From Tabrizicola caldifontis (GTDB lineage: Bacteria; Pseudomonadota; Alphaproteobacteria; Rhodobacterales; Rhodobacteraceae), in contig NZ_SIJH01000013.1 of NCBI RefSeq assembly GCF_004762095.1, forward strand, positions 62,001 through 126,000: a stretch of DNA of 64,000 nt, written 5' to 3'. How positions within the stretch are numbered: the stretch's first letter is position 1; each line of letters begins with the position of its first letter. Made by a program: the position numbers and the translations under genes. Positions 1-57,491 of the stretch are shown piece after piece. The notes beneath the pieces are model-generated. The model made no database searches. It had not been told where the DNA came from and was given only the letters and a program-made list of their open reading frames with translations.

Positions 1-1551
1 CCGGCCCGGCTGCGTCGGAATCCGGTTGGCAAGCAGGGCCTCCAGCCAGTCCCTGGCCCCCGGCCCGCTGACCCGGTAGCGGGCGAAGTTCGAGATGTCG
101 ATGATCCCAGCCCGCTCGCGCAGCATCCGTGCCTCTCGCCCGACGGGGCCCCACCAGTTCTGCCGTTCGAAGCCCACGGTCTCTTCGCGCGGCTCGCCTT
201 CGGTGGCGAACCACAGCGGATGTTCCCAGCCGTAGTTCAGGCCGAAGACCGCGCCCATGGCCTTTTGCGTCTGGTAGATCGGGCGTACCCGCACCGGGCG
301 GCCGGCCGCGCGCTCTTCGTTCGGGAAATGGATCTTGAAGCGGTTGGCATATTGGTCCTGCACGCGGGCCTTAGTGAAGTCCTTGCCCGCCCAGGCCCCG
401 AACCGCGCCAGATCCCAGCCGAACATGTCGAGCCTGGGCTCGCCCTCCACGATCCATTCCGCAGACAGCAGCCCCAGCCCGCCCGACTGCGAGAAGCCCG
501 GGATGATGCCATTGCAGCAGAAGTAGTTGCGCAGTTCCGGCACCGGGCCGAAAAGCGCGCTGGAATCGGGTGACCAGATCATCGGGCCATTGATCACCCG
601 CTTGATCCCCGCCGCACCCACTGCCGGCATCCGGTCGATCGCGCGTAGCATGTTGGGTTCGATCCGCTCCAGGTCGTCGGCGAAAAGCTCGTGGCCGAAG
701 CCCTGCGGCGTGCCGTCCTCGGCCCAGAAGCGCATGTCCTTTTCATAGGCGCCGACGAGAAGGCCCTTGCCCTCTTGCCGCAGGTAATACTCGCCGTCCC
801 GGTCCGCGACCGAAGGCAGGCGGCGGTCCAGTGCGGCGATCTCGGGTATCGCTTCGGTGACGAAATACTGATGCTCGGTCGGGACGAGGGGCAGGGCGAT
901 CCCCGCCAGCGCCGCCACTTCTCGCGCCCATAGCCCCGCCGCGTTCACCACCCATTGCGTGCGGATCTCGCCCAGCGGTGTCTCCACGATCCAGCTGCCG
1001 TCGGGCTGCGCCCGCGTTGCCGTGACCGGGCAGTTGCGGTGGATCTGTGCGCCCCGCGCCCTTGCCCCGGCCGCGTAGGCCATGGTGACCCCCGAAGGAT
1101 CGACGTTGCCGCCCTGCGGCTCGAACATGATGCAGCGGATGTCGTTGAAATCGACCAGGGGATGCAGCCTTTCGGCTTCGTCGCGGGTCACTTCGTGGAA
1201 GGCCATCCCGTAATAGCGCGCCTTTGCGGCCTGAAGGCGCAGCTGGTGTTCGCGCGCCTCGGTCTGGGCCAGATACAGGCTGCCCGGCTGAAAGATGCCG
1301 CAGCCCTGGCCGGTCTCGGCCTCCAGCTCCTTGTAAAGCCCCATGGTGTAATGCTGCAGGCGGCTGATGTTGGTGTTGTCGTGCAGCCCGTGGATGTTCG
1401 CCGCCGCGTGCCATGTGCTGCCCGAAGTCAGTTCCGACCGTTCCAGCAACACCACTTCGGTCCAGCCCAGTTTCGTCAGGTGGTAAAGGATCGAGCAGCC
1501 GACCAGCCCGCCCCCGATCACCACAGCCTGTGCATGTGAATTCAGTTTCAC
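1..1551 (-). CDS. FAD-dependent oxidoreductase with GcvT-like tail (dimethylglycine/sarcosine dehydrogenase family), 3' end beyond window
   Basis: The visible 517 residues open with a Rossmann FAD motif (VVIGGGLVG, about residues 10-18). At residues 45-50 comes STWHAA, with His48 in the place where dimethylglycine and sarcosine dehydrogenases bind FAD covalently. A DAO-type body follows, and at the window edge begins a segment resembling the aminomethyltransferase (GcvT) domain (for example RYRVSGPGARDWLEALLANR). Family members oxidise N-methyl groups and pass the formaldehyde unit to tetrahydrofolate. I chose the GTG at 1551 because it sits one base after the TGA of the upstream methyltransferase gene, which indicates translational coupling. 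The reading frame stays open to base 1, so the C-terminus is missing. The substrate is inferred from family and neighbours only. Confidence 0.88.
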   Translation of the reverse strand, partial: MKLNSHAQAVVIGGGLVGCSILYHLTKLGWTEVVLLERSELTSGSTWHAAANIHGLHDNTNISRLQHYTMGLYKELEAETGQGCGIFQPGSLYLAQTEAREHQLRLQAAKARYYGMAFHEVTRDEAERLHPLVDFNDIRCIMFEPQGGNVDPSGVTMAYAAGARARGAQIHRNCPVTATRAQPDGSWIVETPLGEIRTQWVVNAAGLWAREVAALAGIALPLVPTEHQYFVTEAIPEIAALDRRLPSVADRDGEYYLRQEGKGLLVGAYEKDMRFWAEDGTPQGFGHELFADDLERIEPNMLRAIDRMPAVGAAGIKRVINGPMIWSPDSSALFGPVPELRNYFCCNGIIPGFSQSGGLGLLSAEWIVEGEPRLDMFGWDLARFGAWAGKDFTKARVQDQYANRFKIHFPNEERAAGRPVRVRPIYQTQKAMGAVFGLNYGWEHPLWFATEGEPREETVGFERQNWWGPVGREARMLRERAGIIDISNFARYRVSGPGARDWLEALLANRIPTQPGR

Positions 1552-1552
1552 A

Positions 1553-3073
1553 TCAGGGCTCGTCATTGCCGATCTCTTCCCGCCGCTTGGCGACATAGGC
1601 TTCCAATTCTTCCCGGATCGCCGGGTCCATCGGCGGCTGCTGATATTCGGCCAGGGCCTGCTGCCACAGGTCTGTGGCGCGGTCCCCTGCCTCTTTCGCC
1701 CCGGCCAGAAGCCAGTTCTCGTAGCCCCGCCAGTCCGACAGCATGGGCTGGTAGAAGGCCTTCTCGTAGCGCGCCATCGTATGCGCCGCGCCGAAGAAAT
1801 GGCCGCCCGCCGGGACATCGCGGATGGCGTCGAAGCCCAGCTCCTCAGCGTCCCATTTCAGGGGCCGCAGGAATTCCACCATGTTCTGCAGGATCTCCAC
1901 GTCGAGGATCAGCTTCTCGTAGCTGGCGGTCAGTCCGCCCTCCAGCCAGCCGGCTGCGTGGTAGATCAGGTTCGCCCCGCCCATCACCGCGCCCCAAGTG
2001 GCCATCGCCGTCTCGTAGGCCGCCTGAAGATCAACAGCGTTCGAGGCATTGGCGTTCGAGGTCCGGTAGGGCAGACCATAGCGCCGCGCCAGCTGACCGG
2101 CGATGACGTTGGCCTTGGCATTCTCCGGCGTGCCGAAGGCGGGGGCGCCCGATCGCATGTCGACATTCGAGGTGAAGGCCCCGTACATCACCGGCGCGCC
2201 GGGCCGGACCAGCTGGGTCAGGACGACACCGAACAGCGCCTCTGCGTTCTGCTGTGCCATGGCTGCGGGTAGGCTGACCGGGGTCATCGCGCCCATCAGG
2301 GTGAAGGGGGTGATGGTGACAGGCTGACCGTGTTCGGCCATCGCAATCAGCCCGTCGCCCATCGCATCGTCCAGAAGCCGCGGCGAGTTGACCGAGATAA
2401 TGGTGATGACGCCAGGGTCGCGGGCGATCTCGCCCAGGTTCATCCCGCGCGAGATGGCCATCATGCGGATGCCGTCCATCGCCCGGCCGCGGCCGATGGC
2501 GGTGCAGTGGAAGGTCAGGTCCGACAACGTGAGGTTGGCAAAATAGGTATCCAGGTGGCGATTGTTCGCCGGCAGCTCCTGCGGGGCGGTGACCTGGTTG
2601 CCGATCATGTGGATGGCGTTGAAGTGATGCGCGAGGCGGATGAAGTTCTGGTAATCGGCCAGGTTGCCGGGCCGTCGTCCGTTTACCCGGTCGTGCACGT
2701 TGGGCGGCCCTGCGACCAGGCCGAACACCAGATGGTCGCCCCCGAGATGAACCTGCTTGTCCCGGTTGCGTGGGGTCAGGGTGAACTGGTGCGGCACGGT
2801 GGCCAGGGCGGCATCGACGATGTCTTCGCCGATCCGCACGATGCCCTCCGCGTCAATCCTTGCCCCGGCCCTGGCAAAAAGTGCACGCGCGTTGGCGCCC
2901 ATTACCTTGATGCCCAGTTCCTTGAGGATGCGGATCGAGGTGTCGTGCAGATCCTGCATCTGGTCTGGCGACAGGAACTCCATCGGCGGATGGGGATTGC
3001 GCACCGTCTCCCACGGCAGCTGCGGAATTGTGGTCCCGGCCTTCTCACGCCGCGCTCGTCTTGTTTCCCGCAT
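1553..3073 (-). CDS. MttB-superfamily (trimethylamine/betaine-type) methyltransferase, non-pyrrolysine
   Basis: A 506-residue protein of the trimethylamine methyltransferase (MttB) superfamily, a TIM-barrel fold. Archaeal MttB carries pyrrolysine at an in-frame amber codon, but here the frame runs through with no internal stop, as in the MtgB group that demethylates glycine betaine or similar quaternary amines. Characterised relatives pass the methyl group to a corrinoid protein. No corrinoid-binding protein, reductive activator or methyl-THF partner is visible in this window. The ATG at 3073 has a GAGG-like ribosome site upstream. The gene ends one base before the FAD/GcvT oxidoreductase, so the two are co-transcribed, and it diverges from a LysR regulator. 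The quaternary-amine substrate is inferred. Confidence 0.85.
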   Translation of the reverse strand: MRETRRARREKAGTTIPQLPWETVRNPHPPMEFLSPDQMQDLHDTSIRILKELGIKVMGANARALFARAGARIDAEGIVRIGEDIVDAALATVPHQFTLTPRNRDKQVHLGGDHLVFGLVAGPPNVHDRVNGRRPGNLADYQNFIRLAHHFNAIHMIGNQVTAPQELPANNRHLDTYFANLTLSDLTFHCTAIGRGRAMDGIRMMAISRGMNLGEIARDPGVITIISVNSPRLLDDAMGDGLIAMAEHGQPVTITPFTLMGAMTPVSLPAAMAQQNAEALFGVVLTQLVRPGAPVMYGAFTSNVDMRSGAPAFGTPENAKANVIAGQLARRYGLPYRTSNANASNAVDLQAAYETAMATWGAVMGGANLIYHAAGWLEGGLTASYEKLILDVEILQNMVEFLRPLKWDAEELGFDAIRDVPAGGHFFGAAHTMARYEKAFYQPMLSDWRGYENWLLAGAKEAGDRATDLWQQALAEYQQPPMDPAIREELEAYVAKRREEIGNDEP

Positions 3074-3134
3074 GCTGCCTCGCCCTGCTTACGCGCCCAG
3101 ACTAGGGGCAAGTCTCTCGGGGTTCACGAAAGCG

Positions 3135-3160
3135 AATTGGGGGCCTGACCCCCATTAATT
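3135..3160. promoter_or_regulatory. Candidate LysR operator between the divergent methyltransferase and regulator genes
   Basis: Inverted repeat GGGGG-CCTGA-CCCCC flanked by AATT on the left and ATTAATT on the right, in the 150-bp divergent intergenic region. LysR regulators bind T-N11-A dyads near their own promoter, and this is the most symmetrical candidate here. It could also form an RNA hairpin. No binding is demonstrated. Confidence 0.4.
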
Positions 3161-3223
3161 CCGGGGCATGCGGCCCTTGGCCGCCGAGGGGCTGCTGGCT
3201 TATGCTGGTTGCAGGAGTGCACG

Positions 3224-4090
3224 ATGAAGAACCTGCCCCCGTTGAACTACATCCGGTCGTTCGAGGCGTCCGCCCGGCACCTGAGCTTCACCAAGGCCGC
3301 CGAAGAACTGGGCATGACCCAGGCGGCGGTCTCGGGCCATGTCCGTGCGCTGGAGAACTACATCGGCCGCCCGCTGTTCTTCCGTGCGCCGCGCAGCCTC
3401 AGCCTGACGGAAGTCGCCGCCTCATATCTGCCCACGCTCAGGCAGGCGCTGGCCCAGATCGACATCGCCACCGGTCAGATCCTGACCGTGGCGCACCGGC
3501 AGGAGGTGATCATCGCCTGTCCGGCAAGTCTTGCGACCAACTGGCTGCCGCCGCGCCTGCGCGCCTTCCGTGAGGCCTCTCCCGAAGTGGATGTGACCGT
3601 CCATGCAACGATCTGGTCGGAAACCAGCGACCAGATCGCCGACATCCGGATCACCCCGCGCCATGTCAGCCAGCCGCTGATCGGGCGCAGCCTCGGGGAG
3701 GAGGAACTGGTGATGGTCTGCCCGCCGTCCTTTCTTTCGGGCCCCGAGCCGCTGAGCCGACCCGCCGATGTCGCCCGTTGGCCGCTGATTCACGTCCTCG
3801 GCCGACAGGAACACTGGGAAGCCTTCGCCCGGCACCACGGGCTGACCGACCTTCCCCTTGCCCGAGGGTTGAAGACCGACAGTTCCAACGTCGCACTCGA
3901 GATGGCAAGTGCCGGTCTCGGCTGCGCGATCACCCTGGCGTCTCTGGCCGAGGTCCACCTGCAGCGCGGCCTTCTGGTCGAGCCCTTTCCCGATCGCATG
4001 CCCAGCGGCTGGGGCTATGACCTGCATCCCGGCGAACTCAGCCCGACGCGTGCCAGCGAAAGGCTGATGCAGTTCCTGTTGCGCCGGTGA
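3224..4090 (+). CDS. LysR family transcriptional regulator, GcvA-like
   Basis: A 288-residue LysR-type regulator. The N-terminal winged helix-turn-helix (residues about 5-65) contains SFTKAAEELGMTQAAVSGHV, typical of the GcvA branch, and a periplasmic-binding-protein-like effector domain follows. I chose the ATG at 3224 because AGGAG lies eight bases upstream and the protein then begins MKNLPPLNYIRSFEA, the usual GcvA-like start. A TTG 15 bases earlier is less likely. It diverges from the methyltransferase/oxidoreductase pair, so it probably regulates that pair in response to a methylated amine or glycine-related effector. That assignment rests on position only. Confidence 0.92.
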   Translation: MKNLPPLNYIRSFEASARHLSFTKAAEELGMTQAAVSGHVRALENYIGRPLFFRAPRSLSLTEVAASYLPTLRQALAQIDIATGQILTVAHRQEVIIACPASLATNWLPPRLRAFREASPEVDVTVHATIWSETSDQIADIRITPRHVSQPLIGRSLGEEELVMVCPPSFLSGPEPLSRPADVARWPLIHVLGRQEHWEAFARHHGLTDLPLARGLKTDSSNVALEMASAGLGCAITLASLAEVHLQRGLLVEPFPDRMPSGWGYDLHPGELSPTRASERLMQFLLRR

Positions 4091-10210: not shown

Positions 10211-10336
10211 CGCGCGCCCCGCTTGCCCGTCCGGCGATGGATGTAATGGTTTCCCCCCAGGCTAGAAAGGGGCATTGCGACACACGGTCTGCCGGCGGCC
10301 TGCGACGCTTCGCCCGGGGCTGCCGCGCATCATGTC

Positions 10337-10346
10337 GGAAATTTCC
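10337..10346. promoter_or_regulatory. Palindrome in the sarcosine oxidase operon upstream region
   Basis: GGAAATTTCC, a perfect ten-base palindrome extended by TCG on the left and CGA on the right after one extra C, lies about 100 bases before soxB. The 232-base region 10211-10442 holds no gene. It may be an operator for a regulator of the sox operon. This is an inference from symmetry. Confidence 0.3.
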
Positions 10347-10442
10347 CGATTGTGCCGCTACAGGGTGGGGCTGTATCCCGCAAGCGTTCATATCAGAACC
10401 GTGCCGTCGATTGCGGTGCACTCCGTCCGAGATGAGGCCACG

Positions 10443-11690
10443 ATGAAGCGTTATTCGGTCTTTGCCATTGCCCGCGAGGCTGTCCGCTACCACCTGGGTT
10501 GGGAGAGAGCCTGGGCCTCGCCAGAGCCGAAGGCTTCCTACGACGCGATCATCGTCGGGGCAGGGGGGCATGGCCTGGCCACCGCCTATTATCTGGGCAA
10601 GAACTTCGGCATCACGAATGTCGCGGTGATCGAGAAGGGCTGGCTTGGCGGCGGCAACACCGGGCGCAACACCACGATCATCCGCTCGAACTACCTGCAG
10701 GATCCCTCTGCCGCGATCTACGAAAAGGCCCGCGCGCTGTATGAGACCCTCAGCCAGGAGCTGAACTACAACATCATGTTCAGTCCGCGCGGCCTGCTGA
10801 TGCTTGCCCAGTCGCATCACGAAGTGCGGGGATACCTGCGCACCGTGCATGCCAACGCGCTGCAAGGGGTGCAGACCGAATGGATTTCGCCCCAGCGGGT
10901 CAAGGAACTGGTGCCGATCATCAACATCGACGGGCCCCGCTATCCGGTGCTTGGTGCGCTCTATCAGGCCCGTGGCGGCACTGCCCGACACGATGCGGTG
11001 GCCTGGGGCTATGCGCGGGCCTGTTCGGGGATGGGCATGCACATCATCCAGAACTGCGAGGTGAAGGGCGTGCGGTCCGAGAACGGCCAGGTGACCGGGG
11101 TCGAGACCACCAAGGGTTTCATCGGCTGCAAGAAACTTGGGATCGTCGTTGCCGGCCATTCCGGCCAGCTGGCCGAGATGGCGGGCTTCCGCCTGCCGAT
11201 CGAGGCCGTCGCGCTGCAGGCGCTGGTCTCCGAGCCGATCAAGCCCTGCATGGATGTGGTGGTCATGGCCAACACCGTGCACGGCTACATGTCGCAATCC
11301 GACAAGGGCGAGATGGTGATCGGCGGCGGCACCGACGGGTTCAACAACTACACACAGCGCGGCTCGTTCCACCACATCGAAGAGACGCTGCGCGCCCTGG
11401 TGGAAACCTTCCCGATCATCAGCCGGCTCAAGATGCTGCGGCAATGGGGCGGCATCGTGGACATGACCGGCGACCGCTCGCCCATCATCTCGAAGACTCC
11501 GCTTGGCAACTGCTTCATCAACTGCGGCTGGGGTACGGGCGGCTTCAAGGCGATCCCCGGCTCGGGCTGGGCGATGGCGGAACTTATGGCCAAGGGAGAA
11601 CCGGGGCCACTGGCCGCCGAGTTCAACATGTGGCGCTTCAAGGAAGGCCAGTTCATCGACGAATCCGTCGCGGCAGGGGTGGCGCACTGA
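10443..11690 (+). CDS. soxB: Sarcosine oxidase subunit beta
   Basis: The 415-residue catalytic FAD/FMN subunit of heterotetrameric sarcosine oxidase, which oxidises sarcosine to glycine plus 5,10-methylene-THF and peroxide. The FAD-binding motif IIVGAGGHGLATAYYL is at residues 36-51. GGTARHDAVAWGY (residues 178-190) contains His183, which by family comparison should carry the covalent FMN. The ATG at 10443 is preceded by GATGAGG. It is the first gene of soxBDAG. It is unrelated to the thiosulfate-oxidising SoxB despite the shared symbol. Confidence 0.97.
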   Translation: MKRYSVFAIAREAVRYHLGWERAWASPEPKASYDAIIVGAGGHGLATAYYLGKNFGITNVAVIEKGWLGGGNTGRNTTIIRSNYLQDPSAAIYEKARALYETLSQELNYNIMFSPRGLLMLAQSHHEVRGYLRTVHANALQGVQTEWISPQRVKELVPIINIDGPRYPVLGALYQARGGTARHDAVAWGYARACSGMGMHIIQNCEVKGVRSENGQVTGVETTKGFIGCKKLGIVVAGHSGQLAEMAGFRLPIEAVALQALVSEPIKPCMDVVVMANTVHGYMSQSDKGEMVIGGGTDGFNNYTQRGSFHHIEETLRALVETFPIISRLKMLRQWGGIVDMTGDRSPIISKTPLGNCFINCGWGTGGFKAIPGSGWAMAELMAKGEPGPLAAEFNMWRFKEGQFIDESVAAGVAH

Positions 11691-11739
11691 TGCCCGCCTC
11701 GCGCCCGACCCCGAAAGCATCCCGCAACGGAGACGCAGC

Positions 11740-12063
11740 ATGCTGATCCTCGAATGTCCCTACTGCGGCGTGAAGGCCGAAGAGACCGAGCTTTCCCCGG
11801 GCTACGAGGCGCATCTGAAGCGCTTCGGCCCCGGCTCCTCGCCCGAGGAGTTCGAGGCCTACATGTTCGCCCGCAAGAACCCCAAGGGCGTGCATTTCGA
11901 ACGCTGGCGTCACACCTACGGCTGCGGCAAGTGGTTCCTGGCCGCGCGCTGCACCGCCACGCTCGAGGTGTTCGGCACCTATCCCGCGCAGGTCTCCGAA
12001 CCGCCTGCCGACATCATCGCGAAGATCCAGGCCCGTCGGCCTGACTGGAAGGGCTACAAATGA
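11740..12063 (+). CDS. soxD: Sarcosine oxidase subunit delta
   Basis: The 107-residue zinc-binding small subunit. It begins with LILECPYCGVKAE (Cys6, Cys9), and RHTYGCGKWF supplies His58 and Cys62, the remaining ligands of the structural zinc known in this subunit. The ATG at 11740 follows GGAGAC with good spacing. The gene sits between soxB (49-base gap) and soxA, which it overlaps by four bases (ATGA). Confidence 0.97.
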   Translation: MLILECPYCGVKAEETELSPGYEAHLKRFGPGSSPEEFEAYMFARKNPKGVHFERWRHTYGCGKWFLAARCTATLEVFGTYPAQVSEPPADIIAKIQARRPDWKGYK

Positions 12064-14978
12064 GCACGCGCCTCGCCAGGGGCGGCCGGCTGATCGACCG
12101 GACCGCGCCCGTCGAATTCACCTTCAACGGCAAGCGTTTCAGGGGCTTCCGGGGCGACACGCTGGCTGCGGGCCTTCTGGCGAACGACCAGATGCTTGTA
12201 GGCCGCAGCTTCAAGTATCACCGCCCCCGCGGCATCGTCGCCTCGGGGCCGGAAGAGCCGAACGCTCTGGTGAACCTCGGCACCGGGGCCCGGTTGGAAC
12301 CGAACCAGCGCACCACCACGACCGAGCTTTTCGACGGGCTGGAATGCTCCTCGCAGAACCACTGGCCCAGCCTGGAATTCGACGTGGGCGTGGTAAACAA
12401 CTACGCCGCGCGCTTCCTGCCGGCGGGGTTCTACTACAAGACCTTCATCCACCCGCGCCCGTTCTGGAAACACGTCTTCGAGCCGATCATCCGCCGCTCG
12501 GCCGGCCTCGGCAAGGCGCCGACGCAACCCGACGCCGACCGCTATGAACAGGCCTATGCCTTCTGCGACGTGCTGGTCGTGGGGGCAGGCGTCGCGGGCA
12601 TGAAGGTCGCGAAGGCTGCCGCCGACAAGGGCCAGCGCGTGATCCTTCTGGAACAGGCCCCGGTCCTCGGCGGCCGCGCCCCGGTCGATCAGACCGAGGT
12701 GGACGGCCAGCCCGTCGAGGCCTGGCTGTCGGCGATGGAGGCCGACCTCCTGGCGCGCGACAACGTGACCCTGCGCACCCGCACCTGCGGCTTCGGGGTC
12801 TATGACCACGGCTATGTCCTGGCCGACGAGCGCGTGGCCGACCATACGCCCGGCGACGGGCGGCCGAAGCATCGGCTGTGGCGCATCCGTGCGGGCAAGA
12901 TCGTAAGCGCCACGGGGGCGATCGAACGACCGCTTTCCTTTGCCGGCAACGACATTCCGGGCGTCATGCTCGCCTCGGCTGTGCGTGACTACGTGGTGAA
13001 CTACGCGGTGTCTCCGGGCGACCGGACGGTGATCGTCACCAACAACGACAGCGCCTACCAGACCGCGCTGGCGCTGAAGGCGGCGGGGCTGGACGTGCCC
13101 GCCATCCTCGATGCACGCGAGGTCGCCGACGGCGCCCTGCCGCAGGCCGCCCGCGCCGCAGGGATCCGCGTGCTGACCGGCAAGGCCATCGCCAAGGTCA
13201 AGGGCGGGAAGCGCGTAACCGGCGTCGCCGTCTGCGCCCAGGCGGGCGAGGGCACGGTGCAGGAAGAGATCGCCTGCGAGGCCGTCGCCATGTCGGGCGG
13301 CTGGTCGCCCGTGGTGCATCTGTGGAGCCACTGCGGCGGCAAGCTGCTCTGGGACGAGACGATTTCGGCCTTTGTCCCCGACCCGAAGCGTCCGCCTCTG
13401 AACCATGACGGTTCCGCGATGGTCGAATGCGTCGGTGCGGCGGCGGGCGATCTCGACCTGTCGGGCAAGCCGGCGGCGATCCCGCCGGTCTGGGTCATGC
13501 CGCAGGGTGCGCCGGTCCAGTTGCGCAACAAGATGTGGCTCGACTACCAGAACGACGTGAAGGTTTCGGACGTGCAGCTCGCCAGCCGCGAGGGCTATGT
13601 CTCGGTCGAACACACCAAGCGCTATACCACCCTGGGCATGGCAACGGATCAGGGAAAACTCAGCAACATCAACGGACTCGCCGTGCTTGCTGAGTCTCTA
13701 GGTGAAGAGATTCCGCAGGTCGGCACCACCACCTTCCGTCCGCCCTACACCCCGGTCACCATCGGCGCGCTGGCCGGCGAGGCGCGGGGCGAGATCTTCC
13801 AGCCGCTGCGCCGCACGCCCATGCACGAAGCCCACGAGAAGGCCGGCGCCTATTTCGAGCCCGTCGGCCTCTGGCGCCGCCCCTACTGCTTCCCGCGCGC
13901 GGGCGAGACCCATGAACAGGCCGTCCACCGCGAGGTGCTGAACACCCGGCAGAACCTCGGCCTTCTGGACGCCTCGACCCTGGGCAAGATCATCGTCAAG
14001 GGCCCGGATGCCGGGAAGTTCCTCGACATGCTCTACACCGGCGTGATGTCCACGCTGCCCGTAGGCAAGTGCCGCTATGGTCTGATGTGCAACGAACAGG
14101 GCTTCCTGATCGACGACGGCGTGGTCGCCCGGATCGACGAGGACACCTGGCTGTGCCACACCACTTCCGGCGGGGCCGACCGCATCCACGCCTGGATGGA
14201 GGACTGGCTGCAATGCGAATGGTGGGACTGGCAGGTCTATACCGCCAATGTCACCGAGCAATATGCCCAGGTCGCGGTCGTCGGCCCGAACGCGAGGAAA
14301 CTTCTGCAAGTCCTTGGCGGCATGGATGTATCCAAGGAGGCGCTGCCCTTCATGCACTGGGCGGACGGCTCGCTTGCGGGCTTCCCGGTGCGGGTTTACC
14401 GGATCAGCTTCTCGGGCGAGCTTTCCTATGAAATCGCCGTCCCCGCCAGCCACGGCGCGGCCTTCTGGGAGGCCTGCATGGAGGCTGGCAAGGCGCTGGG
14501 CGCCATGCCTTACGGCACCGAGGCGCTGCACATCATGCGGGCCGAAAAGGGCTTCATCATGATCGGGGATGAGACCGACGGCACAGTGATCCCGCAGGAC
14601 CTCGGGCTCGACTGGGCGATCTCGAAGAAGAAGGCCGACTACCTGGGCAAGCGCGGGCAGGAACGGACCTACCTCGCCAGCCCCGACCGCTGGAAGCTCG
14701 TCGGCTTCGAGACGCTGGACGGCTCGGTCATCCCGGACGGGGCCTACATCGTCGCGGACGGGGTGAACGCCAACGGCCAGCGCAACACTCAGGGCAGGGT
14801 GACTTCCACCTACTATTCGCCGACGCTGAAGCGCGGCATCGCCATGGGCCTGTTGAAGCACGGGCCGCAGCGGATGGGCGAAGTGGTGGAGTTCAACACG
14901 GTCGCCGGCGGCACGGTCAAGGCGCGGGTGCGCGACACCGTGTTCTACGACAGGGATGGGGAGAAGCAGAATGTCTGA
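12060..14978 (+). CDS. soxA: Sarcosine oxidase subunit alpha
   Basis: The 972-residue NAD- and folate-binding subunit, near the usual length. The order is an N-terminal ferredoxin-like segment (FTFNGKRFRGFRGDTLAAGLL), an NAD-binding Rossmann domain with VLVVGAGVAGMKVAKAA near residues 171-187, a second dinucleotide domain, and from about residue 600 a GcvT-like THF-binding domain. It channels the imine product from the beta subunit to tetrahydrofolate. It is translationally coupled to soxD (ATGA) and overlaps soxG by eight bases, which supports stoichiometric assembly. Confidence 0.97.
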   Translation: MSTRLARGGRLIDRTAPVEFTFNGKRFRGFRGDTLAAGLLANDQMLVGRSFKYHRPRGIVASGPEEPNALVNLGTGARLEPNQRTTTTELFDGLECSSQNHWPSLEFDVGVVNNYAARFLPAGFYYKTFIHPRPFWKHVFEPIIRRSAGLGKAPTQPDADRYEQAYAFCDVLVVGAGVAGMKVAKAAADKGQRVILLEQAPVLGGRAPVDQTEVDGQPVEAWLSAMEADLLARDNVTLRTRTCGFGVYDHGYVLADERVADHTPGDGRPKHRLWRIRAGKIVSATGAIERPLSFAGNDIPGVMLASAVRDYVVNYAVSPGDRTVIVTNNDSAYQTALALKAAGLDVPAILDAREVADGALPQAARAAGIRVLTGKAIAKVKGGKRVTGVAVCAQAGEGTVQEEIACEAVAMSGGWSPVVHLWSHCGGKLLWDETISAFVPDPKRPPLNHDGSAMVECVGAAAGDLDLSGKPAAIPPVWVMPQGAPVQLRNKMWLDYQNDVKVSDVQLASREGYVSVEHTKRYTTLGMATDQGKLSNINGLAVLAESLGEEIPQVGTTTFRPPYTPVTIGALAGEARGEIFQPLRRTPMHEAHEKAGAYFEPVGLWRRPYCFPRAGETHEQAVHREVLNTRQNLGLLDASTLGKIIVKGPDAGKFLDMLYTGVMSTLPVGKCRYGLMCNEQGFLIDDGVVARIDEDTWLCHTTSGGADRIHAWMEDWLQCEWWDWQVYTANVTEQYAQVAVVGPNARKLLQVLGGMDVSKEALPFMHWADGSLAGFPVRVYRISFSGELSYEIAVPASHGAAFWEACMEAGKALGAMPYGTEALHIMRAEKGFIMIGDETDGTVIPQDLGLDWAISKKKADYLGKRGQERTYLASPDRWKLVGFETLDGSVIPDGAYIVADGVNANGQRNTQGRVTSTYYSPTLKRGIAMGLLKHGPQRMGEVVEFNTVAGGTVKARVRDTVFYDRDGEKQNV

Positions 14979-15516
14979 CCCGGTTTCCGCGCTGAACGGC
15001 GCCAGCTTCCAAGGCTTTGCCACCATCCGGGAAATCGGCCCGCTGGGCATGATAACCCTGCGCGCAAAGGGGCTGAAATCGCTGGACAAGGCGATCAAGG
15101 CAGTGACGGGGACTAGGGTTCCCGCGCCGCGCCGGATCGAGATCAAGGGCGACCATGCCTGCGGCTGGATGAGCCCGGACGAATACCTGCTGATCCTGCC
15201 TTACGCCGAGGTCGGCGAGGCGATGGGCAAGCTGGCGAAGGCGCTGGCGGGGGAACATCACCTTGCCGTCGATGTCTCGGACGCCCGCGCGGTCTTCCGC
15301 ATCGAGGGTGACAAGGCCGACCAGGTGCTGCGCAAGCTGATGCCGGTGGATTTCGACCGGCTGGAGCCGGGCGAATTGCGCCGCAGCCGCGCAGCCCAGG
15401 TCGCGGCGGCGATCTGGCAGCAGGATCAGGGCTTTACGCTGGTCTGCTTCCGGTCGGTCGCAAGTTACGTCATGGGCCTTCTGACCCATTCTGCCCAACC
15501 GGGCAGCGAGCTGTAG
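14971..15516 (+). CDS. soxG: Sarcosine oxidase subunit gamma
   Basis: The 181-residue fourth subunit of the sarcosine oxidase complex, with a small GcvT-like fold. CGWMSPDEYLLILPY and VDVSDARAVFRIEG are recognisable family blocks. The start is the ATG at 14971, inside the last codons of soxA. It is the last gene of the operon, and a strong hairpin follows at 15534-15555. Confidence 0.95.
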   Translation: MSDPVSALNGASFQGFATIREIGPLGMITLRAKGLKSLDKAIKAVTGTRVPAPRRIEIKGDHACGWMSPDEYLLILPYAEVGEAMGKLAKALAGEHHLAVDVSDARAVFRIEGDKADQVLRKLMPVDFDRLEPGELRRSRAAQVAAAIWQQDQGFTLVCFRSVASYVMGLLTHSAQPGSEL

Positions 15517-15555: not shown

Positions 15556-15674
15556 GTCACCCCGGCGTGGAACCCGGCCCGGCCCGGTCGCGTCGATCCC
15601 GGCCGGTTGCCCTTGACCTTCCGGCCGCGAACCCTCTTATTCCTGCCAAGCATCACCCGAACAGGAGCAAGCCG

Positions 15675-16277
15675 ATGGCCTTCACTCTTCCCGATCTTCC
15701 TTACGCGCATGACGCTCTGGCCTCCCTTGGCATGTCGAAGGAAACGCTGGAATACCACCACGACCTGCACCACAAGGCCTATGTGGACAACGGCAACAAG
15801 CTGATCGCCGGCACCGAGTGGGAGAACAAGTCGCTAGAGGACATCATCCGCGGCACCTACCAGCCGGGCGCCGTGGCGCAGAACGGCATCTTCAACAACG
15901 CCTCGCAGCACTGGAACCACAACATGTTCTGGACCTGGATGGCCCCGGGCGAGAACAAGAAGATGCCGGGCGAGCTGGAGAAGGCGCTGACCGAGGCCTT
16001 CGGCTCGGTGCAGAAGTTCAAGGAGGATTTCGCCGCCGCCGGGGTGGGCCAGTTCGGCTCGGGCTGGTGCTGGCTGGTCAAGGACAAGGACGGCAGCCTC
16101 AAGGTCACCAAGACCGAGAACGGGGTGAACCCGCTCTGCTTCGGGCAGACCGCGCTTCTGGGCTGCGATGTCTGGGAGCATTCCTACTACATCGACTACC
16201 GCAACAAGCGCCCGGCCTATCTGACCAACTTCCTGGACAAGCTGGTGAACTGGGAAGCCGTCGCCGCTGGTCTGTAA
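15675..16277 (+). CDS. sodB: Superoxide dismutase, Fe/Mn family
   Basis: A 200-residue Fe/Mn superoxide dismutase. The expected metal ligands are His28 (EYHHDLHHKAYV), His82 (NNASQHWNHNMFW), Asp165 and His169 (CDVWEHSYYIDYRN). Gln77 in the NNASQ block and overall similarity to E. coli SodB favour iron or cambialistic use. The ATG at 15675 has AGGAG upstream. It sits directly after the peroxide-producing sarcosine oxidase operon but is separated by a hairpin, so it is probably transcribed independently. Confidence 0.97.
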   Translation: MAFTLPDLPYAHDALASLGMSKETLEYHHDLHHKAYVDNGNKLIAGTEWENKSLEDIIRGTYQPGAVAQNGIFNNASQHWNHNMFWTWMAPGENKKMPGELEKALTEAFGSVQKFKEDFAAAGVGQFGSGWCWLVKDKDGSLKVTKTENGVNPLCFGQTALLGCDVWEHSYYIDYRNKRPAYLTNFLDKLVNWEAVAAGL

Positions 16278-56422: not shown

Positions 56423-56468
56423 CGCTTCCCCCTTGCCAAGCGGTCGGGCTTCGGCCACTCCCGACGCC

Positions 56469-57491
56469 ATGGAATACTATTATCGCCCCATCCCCATGAT
56501 CGACCCGGCCCGTGCGGCAGGTGCCTTGCCGCTGGCGGGTGGCTGGTGCTGGTTCGACCGGGTCGAGGTTCTGTCGCGCAGTGCTGCGCCCAGGGTCATC
56601 CCGGCAGGCGAGGTGCCCGAGCCCGTGTTGCACCGCCTGACCGCACCGCGCGCCGCGTTCGCGAGCCTGTCGATGGATCGCCCGCGCCTCATGGGCATAT
56701 TGAACGTGACACCCGACAGCTTTTCCGACGGCGGGCGCTTTTGCTCGGCCGAAGTTGCCGTCCGCCAGGGGCAGCAGATCGCGGACGATGCCGAGATCGT
56801 GGACATTGGCGGCGAAAGCACACGGCCAGGCGCAAGGGAAGTGCCGATCGCCGAGGAAATCTCCCGCACCGTTCCGGTGATCGAGGCCCTGCGGGCGGGT
56901 GGCATGCGTGCCCCGATCTCGATCGACACCCGCAAGGCGTCGGTGGCGGCGGCGGCGATCCGGGGTGGTGCTACGTTGGTCAACGATGTTTCGGGCCTGT
57001 CCTTCGACCCGGCACTGGGCCCGCTGATCGCCCGTGAAGGCGTGCCCCTGGTGCTGATGCATTCCCAGGGCCTGCCCGAGACCATGCAGGACGACCCGCG
57101 CTACGGCAATGTGCTGCTGGATGTCTATGACGAGCTGGCCCGGCGGCTGGCCCGGGCCGAGGCGATGGGAATCGACCGCCGGAACATCGCCGTCGATCCC
57201 GGCATCGGTTTCGGCAAGACTGCGGTGCACAACCTGGCTTTGCTGCGTGGGCTGTCGCTTCTGCATGGGCTGGGCTGCCCGATCCTGCTTGGTGCCTCGC
57301 GCAAGCGGTTCATCGGTTCGATCGGTCGGGCCGAGGCCCCGGATGCGCGGATGCCGGGATCGCTGGCGGTGGCGCTGACGGGTTTTGCACAAGGCGTGCA
57401 GATCACCAGGGTGCATGATGTGGCCGAGACGCGGCAGGCGCTGCGGCTGTGGCAGGCGATGCACACCGAACCACTTGAGGAGATGGCATGA
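56469..57491 (+). CDS. folP: Dihydropteroate synthase
   Basis: 340 residues, longer than the usual 270-280 because of an N-terminal extension of about 70 residues. The core has [32 protein letters not shown] and [10 protein letters not shown], the pterin and pABA binding loops of the TIM barrel targeted by sulfonamides. I chose the ATG at 56469 ([10 protein letters not shown]). Its stop overlaps glmM (ATGA). Confidence 0.96.

Follow-up and report, generated by a model that had tools for sequence, protein, structure and literature searches.

Can an MttB-type methyltransferase work without a corrinoid protein? The question arises from a stretch of 64,000 nucleotides of Tabrizicola caldifontis DNA (the window: bases 62001-126000 of contig NZ_SIJH01000013.1, or C5, in a genome of 3.48 Mb and 53 contigs). 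At one end of the window, a gene for a member of the MttB superfamily (window MttB) overlaps a gene for an oxidoreductase that resembles dimethylglycine dehydrogenase (DMGDH). A first-pass annotation proposed that this MttB has no corrinoid partner and that its methyl groups reach folate by a route without a corrinoid. We found that the whole corrinoid set is encoded elsewhere in the same genome. The proposal of a corrinoid-free MttB rested on the boundary of the window and is not supported. The best explanation is that window MttB is a B12-dependent spoke on a common hub whose genes sit elsewhere in the genome, which is largely an ordinary arrangement. The remaining lead is a modest one: an uncharacterised subfamily of MttB with a DMGDH-like enzyme coupled to it.

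Corrinoid components in the genome

The first-pass annotation suggested a search of the full genome for MttC-like corrinoid proteins and RamA-like activases, and both types are present. Contig C4 encodes a B12-binding corrinoid protein with a DIHDIG motif, which presumably acts as the cobalt ligand. Contig C50 encodes a three-domain activase of the RACo/RamA type. The third component, a methyl-tetrahydrofolate (methyl-THF):corrinoid methyltransferase that is similar to MtgD, is on C34 (PRK07535, 408 bits, with a cut-off of 259); an adjoining frame has a weak match to MetF (22 bits). All three genes are on contigs other than the one with window MttB.

The gene for the C4 corrinoid protein is flanked by a DUF1638 gene on one side and an S-methyl_trans (homocysteine-methyltransferase) gene on the other, all on the same strand. 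The corresponding proteins of the split methionine synthase of Phaeobacter have neighbouring gene numbers (PMC12478193). By analogy, the gene order around the C4 gene appears to match that of the Phaeobacter system. The second match to PF02607 on C4 probably belongs to a MerR-type regulator.

The window contains just one of the genome's matches to PF02607, RACo, and PF00809, namely a Pterin_bind protein (56433-57491, 254 bits). Because its gene is directly before a frame that we take, from its first residues, to encode a GlmM-like protein, this is most likely an ordinary FolP. We considered it as a potential MtgA or MtgD and rejected it, given this location and the MtgD-like protein on C34. 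So, the observation that the corrinoid set is missing from the window holds, apart from this match, but it does not hold for the genome.

Absence from a 64-kb window was weak evidence to begin with, because published systems keep their mttB-type genes apart from the genes for the corrinoid protein, the activase, and the THF methyltransferase (PMC8604678, PMC12478193). It cannot be read as the absence of a corrinoid partner.

Co-occurrence of MttB-type proteins and corrinoid components

To describe the distribution of these components, we used a sample of 289 genomes of α-Proteobacteria (the class sample), with MtgC counted at 73% identity or above. MetH, mutases, and other corrinoid proteins, which matched the MtgC query at 25-50% identity, were not counted as MtgC. 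PF06253, the family of window MttB, was found in 66 of the 289 genomes, MtgC in 62, and RACo in 70. Almost all of the genomes with PF06253 contained RACo (64/66) or MtgC (62/66), and all 62 genomes with MtgC contained PF06253 (Fisher p of 2e-54 for RACo and 7e-59 for MtgC, not corrected for relatedness). RACo was found without PF06253 in 6 genomes.

Three of the 66 genomes have weak matches to PF06253 (G006, G062, and G209). Among the 63 genomes with strong matches, 62 have MtgC. The genomes without MtgC were these three and G147, which is 93% complete and does contain RACo; those without RACo were G209 and G260. RACo in G006 and G062 was a short partial match. Proteins of the same type as window MttB (60% identity or above) were present in 11 genomes, including T. 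caldifontis itself, and all 11 had RACo and 10 had MtgC.

The second sample comprised the genomes of 36 relatives of window MttB, and here full-length MtgC was counted at 67% identity or above. (The two samples share at least two genomes, as G298 and G316 have identical coordinates to G137 and G179, respectively.) Full-length MtgC was present in 31 of the 36 genomes, with one stop in frame in three of these. G299 and G304 contained fragments only, so 33 of the 36 genomes hold at least a piece of MtgC; it was not found in the other three (G313, G320, and G323). RACo was found in 32 of the 36 and not in G304, G313, G320, or G323. G313, G320, and G323 are draft bins in which the MttB gene is on contigs of 6.3, 8.4, and 4.3 kb. 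With MtgC-like, MtgD-like, and RACo genes elsewhere in T. caldifontis, and at least part of MtgC in most of the relatives' genomes, the claim that window MttB has no corrinoid partner fails.

Conserved coupling of the MttB and DMGDH-like genes

The first-pass annotation noted that the stop codon of the MttB gene and a GTG start for the oxidoreductase are one base apart. The spacing is correct (the TGA is at 1555-1553 and the in-frame GTG is at 1551), but the GTG does not appear to be the start. In 11 close relatives, a GTG is found at the matching position just once. In contrast, an ATG at 1566, which is in frame with the GTG and gives a 14-nt overlap with the MttB gene, is conserved in 11/11 and opens into the oxidoreductase frame. 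(In three of these relatives, the frame ends early because of a contig end or a broken frame.) We therefore rejected the GTG, and comparison of the sequences indicates that the ATG is most likely the start. The overlap of the two genes would fit with coupled translation.

We examined 36 loci with relatives of window MttB by using tblastn (1e-10) and up to 9 kb per side, or less at the ends of contigs. At 34 of these loci, at least 500 bases were available downstream of the MttB gene (the exceptions are L046, with 216 bases, and L052, with 0). A DMGDH-like gene overlaps the MttB gene or is at most 100 bp downstream in 22 of these 34 testable loci, if we include L023, where the frame is broken. 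Thus, the coupling of this MttB subfamily to a DMGDH-like gene is conserved, more than expected by chance. Two other loci have a DMGDH-like gene close by: it is 1.5 kb downstream of the MttB gene in L043 and upstream of it in L038.

The DMGDH-like partner has the domains DAO, FAO_M, GCV_T, and GCV_T_C, which is the architecture of the dimethylglycine dehydrogenase family. Its best solved relative is human DMGDH (606 bits, with a nearly full-length alignment), and like the mitochondrial enzyme (5l46, 4p9s), it combines flavin adenine dinucleotide (FAD) and GcvT folate domains. It also carries the STWHAA motif, which we presume has a role in FAD binding. Unlike the mitochondrial enzyme, it is one of six full-length DMGDH-like proteins in its genome; among the five of these that we compared, it is the closest to human DMGDH. 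These results agree with the first-pass view that the partner looks like a THF-dependent demethylase, and they support the broader idea that N-methyl groups are removed step by step and their carbon is passed to folate.

Window MttB is not of the pyrrolysine type

Window MttB matches PF06253 across nearly its entire length (679 bits; residues 3-502 align to positions 3-500 of the 500 in the profile). Among solved structures, its best matches are 4yyc (324 bits) and MtgB from Desulfitobacterium hafniense (2qne and 9yce, 317 bits). Like MtgB, which it matches at full length, it lacks pyrrolysine: there is no in-frame UAG across its 506 codons, and its score against the model for the pyrrolysine-type trimethylamine methyltransferase (TIGR02369) is 281 bits, which is under the cut-off of 525 bits. 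Its nearest relatives are in Tabrizicola and other Rhodobacteraceae (up to 92% identity).

Although it resembles MtgB, window MttB is distant from it. The genome encodes four more MttB paralogues, and two of these are more similar to MtgB (427 bits for the paralogue on C1 and 395 bits for the one at C50:140346). The C1 paralogue also matches 4yyc at 736 bits.

Among the relatives, the MttB match in L053, from a Chloroflexi bin (1941-3449), has one in-frame TAG, at residue 161. This is away from the place of pyrrolysine in MttB (residue 334), and is probably a sequencing error or a pseudogene.

Does window MttB depend on a corrinoid protein?

Several observations weigh against a corrinoid-dependent role for window MttB. 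MtgC is missing from G147 and RACo from G260 in the class sample, and neither was found in G313, G320, and G323 among the relatives' genomes. G323, an Anaerolineae bin with locus L055, has 11 matches to PF06253 but lacks RACo and any MtgC-type match above 30% identity; this pattern could reflect a binning error or another corrinoid system. The C4 protein scores below the NCBIfam cut-offs for MtgC (200 vs. 370 bits for NF047996 and 170 vs. 310 bits for NF047995). Because of these low scores, its name follows the 2025 description in PMC12478193, which terms the MtgC of roseobacters distinct from the D. hafniense protein. Relatives of MtgC, MtgD, RamA, DUF1638, MtgE, or MetF2 were found by tblastn in the flanks of 0 of the 36 loci, and 12 of the 34 testable relatives lack the partner directly downstream.

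Also, at least two PF06253 matches are present in 34 of the 36 relatives' genomes, and MtgC serves methionine synthesis as well (PMC12478193). Because other MttB paralogues and methionine synthesis may keep the corrinoid set in these genomes, co-occurrence does not prove that window MttB uses MtgC.

Finally, the residues for contact with the corrinoid are only partly kept in window MttB. In the complex of MttB and MttC, the contact residues with the corrinoid or with the corrinoid protein are Gly110-Thr111, Gly372, and Glu225 (PMC9842639). By eye, window MttB has Ala-Gly, Gly, and Leu at these positions, and MtgB, which is corrinoid-dependent, has Tyr-Gly, Phe, and Lys. Residue identity is not diagnostic here, because PMC9842639 describes two of these contacts as backbone or rim bonds.

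Could window MttB instead dispense with cobalamin and donate the methyl group directly, either to the partner's GcvT folate domain or to folate? The overlapping genes, the folate domain of the partner, the absence of corrinoid genes near window-type MttB in all 36 loci, and the three genomes in which neither MtgC nor RACo was found would fit. On the other hand, T. caldifontis has the corrinoid set, MtgC and RACo are complete in 31 of the 36 relatives' genomes, and the three without either are short-contig draft bins. Furthermore, because 12 of the 34 testable relatives do not have the partner directly downstream, it is not an obligatory methyl acceptor. We consider this mechanism to be very improbable. 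It is slightly less probable still that this subfamily of MttB has left the corrinoid route, with the GcvT domain of the co-translated partner presenting the folate that accepts the methyl group directly. The first-pass annotation stated that a corrinoid protein and a methyl-THF methyltransferase with a conserved link to the MttB gene would refute its proposal. These genes do exist and they do co-occur with MttB, but they are not adjacent to it at any of the 36 loci.

Proposed mechanism and substrate

Our analysis establishes how the two genes are built, that their coupling is conserved, that the genome encodes the corrinoid components, and that these occur together with MttB across genomes. 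We think that the pair probably removes two N-methyl groups in succession from one quaternary-amine (betaine-type) compound via a shared MtgC/MtgD/RamA hub. In the first step, window MttB would take one methyl group off the quaternary amine and place it on the Co(I) corrinoid of the shared MtgC-like protein. The MtgD-like enzyme would then hand the methyl group to THF, forming methyl-THF, while the RACo/RamA-type activase, perhaps with DUF1638, would hold the cobalt in its reduced state. In the second step, the DMGDH-like flavoprotein would oxidise an N-methyl group of the tertiary amine formed in this way, and capture by its GcvT domain would yield methylene-THF. If this is correct, then one operon yields the first methyl group as methyl-THF, by B12 chemistry, and the second as methylene-THF, by flavin chemistry, and the cobalamin hub of aerobic α-Proteobacteria gains a further, uncharacterised spoke in window MttB.

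This proposal resembles the MtgBCDE/RamA/DUF1638 system of the aerobic α-Proteobacteria Ruegeria pomeroyi and Phaeobacter inhibens, which has PF06253 proteins, a corrinoid protein of the split methionine synthase type, a pterin-binding MtgD, RamA, and DUF1638, with genes that are scattered in R. pomeroyi (PMC12478193). In R. pomeroyi, mutants in mtgC or mtgD lose growth on glycine betaine even if methionine is provided (PMC12478193, 2025). Unlike the genes described in the excerpts on that system, the gene for window MttB is coupled to a DMGDH-like gene, and it is unlinked to mtgC in the loci that we saw. There is a similar precedent in Eubacterium limosum, where several non-pyrrolysine MttB-type enzymes (MtpB, MtcB, and MtyB), encoded apart from each other, feed a single corrinoid protein (MtqC) and share the THF methyltransferase MtqA as well as RamQ (PMC8604678, 2021). 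In the chain with MtyB, methyl-THF did not form if MtyB, MtqC, MtqA, or the substrate was omitted, and the authors suggest that the scattered encoding of the parts may benefit E. limosum (PMC8604678). In contrast to the aerobic systems, E. limosum is an anaerobic acetogen, and the excerpts of PMC8604678 do not mention a DMGDH-like partner.

The substrate of window MttB may well be a compound other than glycine betaine, because the C1 paralogue is closer to the solved MtgB; with its scores against MtgB and 4yyc, the C1 protein looks like the better glycine-betaine candidate. A limited literature search found no named substrate for this subfamily, from which we do not claim that none has been reported. 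We also considered a creatinine-, hydantoin-, or ring-type betaine and found no firm support among the neighbouring genes. Naming the substrate would assign a function to a subfamily from Rhodobacteraceae, rhizobia, and some other bacteria.

The pair could also be a second glycine-betaine system, because the partner is closest to human DMGDH and because there are sarcosine-oxidase-type genes (10275-15516) about 7 kb from the pair. In such a system, window MttB would form dimethylglycine, the partner would convert it to sarcosine, and the sarcosine oxidase would finish the pathway. R. pomeroyi raises two PF06253 proteins during growth on glycine betaine, which is consistent with this (PMC12478193). 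However, two paralogues are closer to MtgB than window MttB is, and the pair is separated from the sarcosine oxidase by unrelated genes. Overall, we view a second glycine-betaine system as somewhat unlikely. The sarcosine-oxidase-type genes could provide a later N-demethylation step, although they are not part of the pair.

Alternatively, the two enzymes might be co-transcribed yet act on different compounds within a single catabolic programme: for example, the oxidoreductase might act on dimethylglycine that is formed by another MttB. In favour of this, 12 of the 34 testable relatives do not have the partner directly downstream, other catabolic genes take its place in the plasmid relatives from Leisingera and Sinorhizobium, and none of the other paralogues compared (five in all) is as close to human DMGDH as the partner. 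But the 14-nt overlap is kept in all 11 close relatives, and the genome has another MttB/DMGDH-like pair, divergent from this one, whose genes overlap by 4 nt (see below). Non-sequential action seems improbable to us, and sequential demethylation is our preferred explanation.

Gene neighbourhoods

Features of the window near the pair are listed in Table 1. The LysR-type gene is divergent from the MttB gene in close relatives too, and is a candidate regulator of the pair.

Table 1. The MttB/DMGDH-like pair and selected nearby genes (window coordinates).
Feature	Position	Strand	Basis
Candidate MttB-superfamily (non-pyrrolysine) quaternary-amine:corrinoid methyltransferase, 506 amino acids	1553..3073	-	PF06253; matches to 4yyc and MtgB; frame without UAG
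DMGDH-like FAD oxidoreductase fused to GcvT, 811 amino acids	1..1566, and beyond the window to C5:61131 (L006:13131)	-	Pfam domains; match to human DMGDH; conserved start
Putative GcvA-like regulator of the LysR type	3209..4090	+	NCBIfam PRK11139.1 (GcvA), 220 bits, below the 288-bit cut-off
soxB-like	10275-11690	+	PF01266
soxA-like	12060-14978	+	PF17806 with PF01571 and PF08669
soxG-like	14956-15516	+	PF04268

DAO (13), GCV_T (11), HTH_18 (8), and LysR (6) were the most common families among 92 frames drawn from 12 of the 36 loci. Other stretches contained MmgE/PrpD, amidohydrolase, hydantoinase, creatininase, sarcosine oxidase, and several types of transporters. Some of the frames used in the analysis were chosen by a codon-composition rule, and part of them may be wrong. 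The neighbour families across the scanned loci do not point to any single pathway.

Neighbours differ among the plasmid relatives, for which the gene table is incomplete. Those from Shinella and Ruegeria have sarcosine-oxidase genes close by, and the one from Shinella has betaine-type transport genes as well. Neither sarcosine-oxidase nor betaine-type transport genes were found in the stretches seen around the plasmid relatives from Leisingera and Sinorhizobium.

The second MttB/DMGDH-like pair of T. caldifontis is on C50 (L018:6573-10570) and has the reverse order, with the DMGDH-like gene first. Its MttB is just 23% identical to window MttB. Another DMGDH-like gene is upstream of this pair, and downstream is a gene for an aldehyde dehydrogenase that is closest to the betaine-aldehyde type, under the cut-off for that type. 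The stretches surrounding this genome's three remaining MttB genes gave no DMGDH-like match, so two of the five MttB genes are beside DMGDH-like genes.

Downstream of the first pair, and on the opposite strand (L006:8216-12687), are genes for a creatininase, a FAD_binding_4 oxidase, and a family-5 solute-binding protein. Several close relatives also have the oxidase and the solute-binding protein near the pair, which may hint at the substrate. Following the sarcosine-oxidase-type genes, there is a superoxide dismutase gene (15567-16277).

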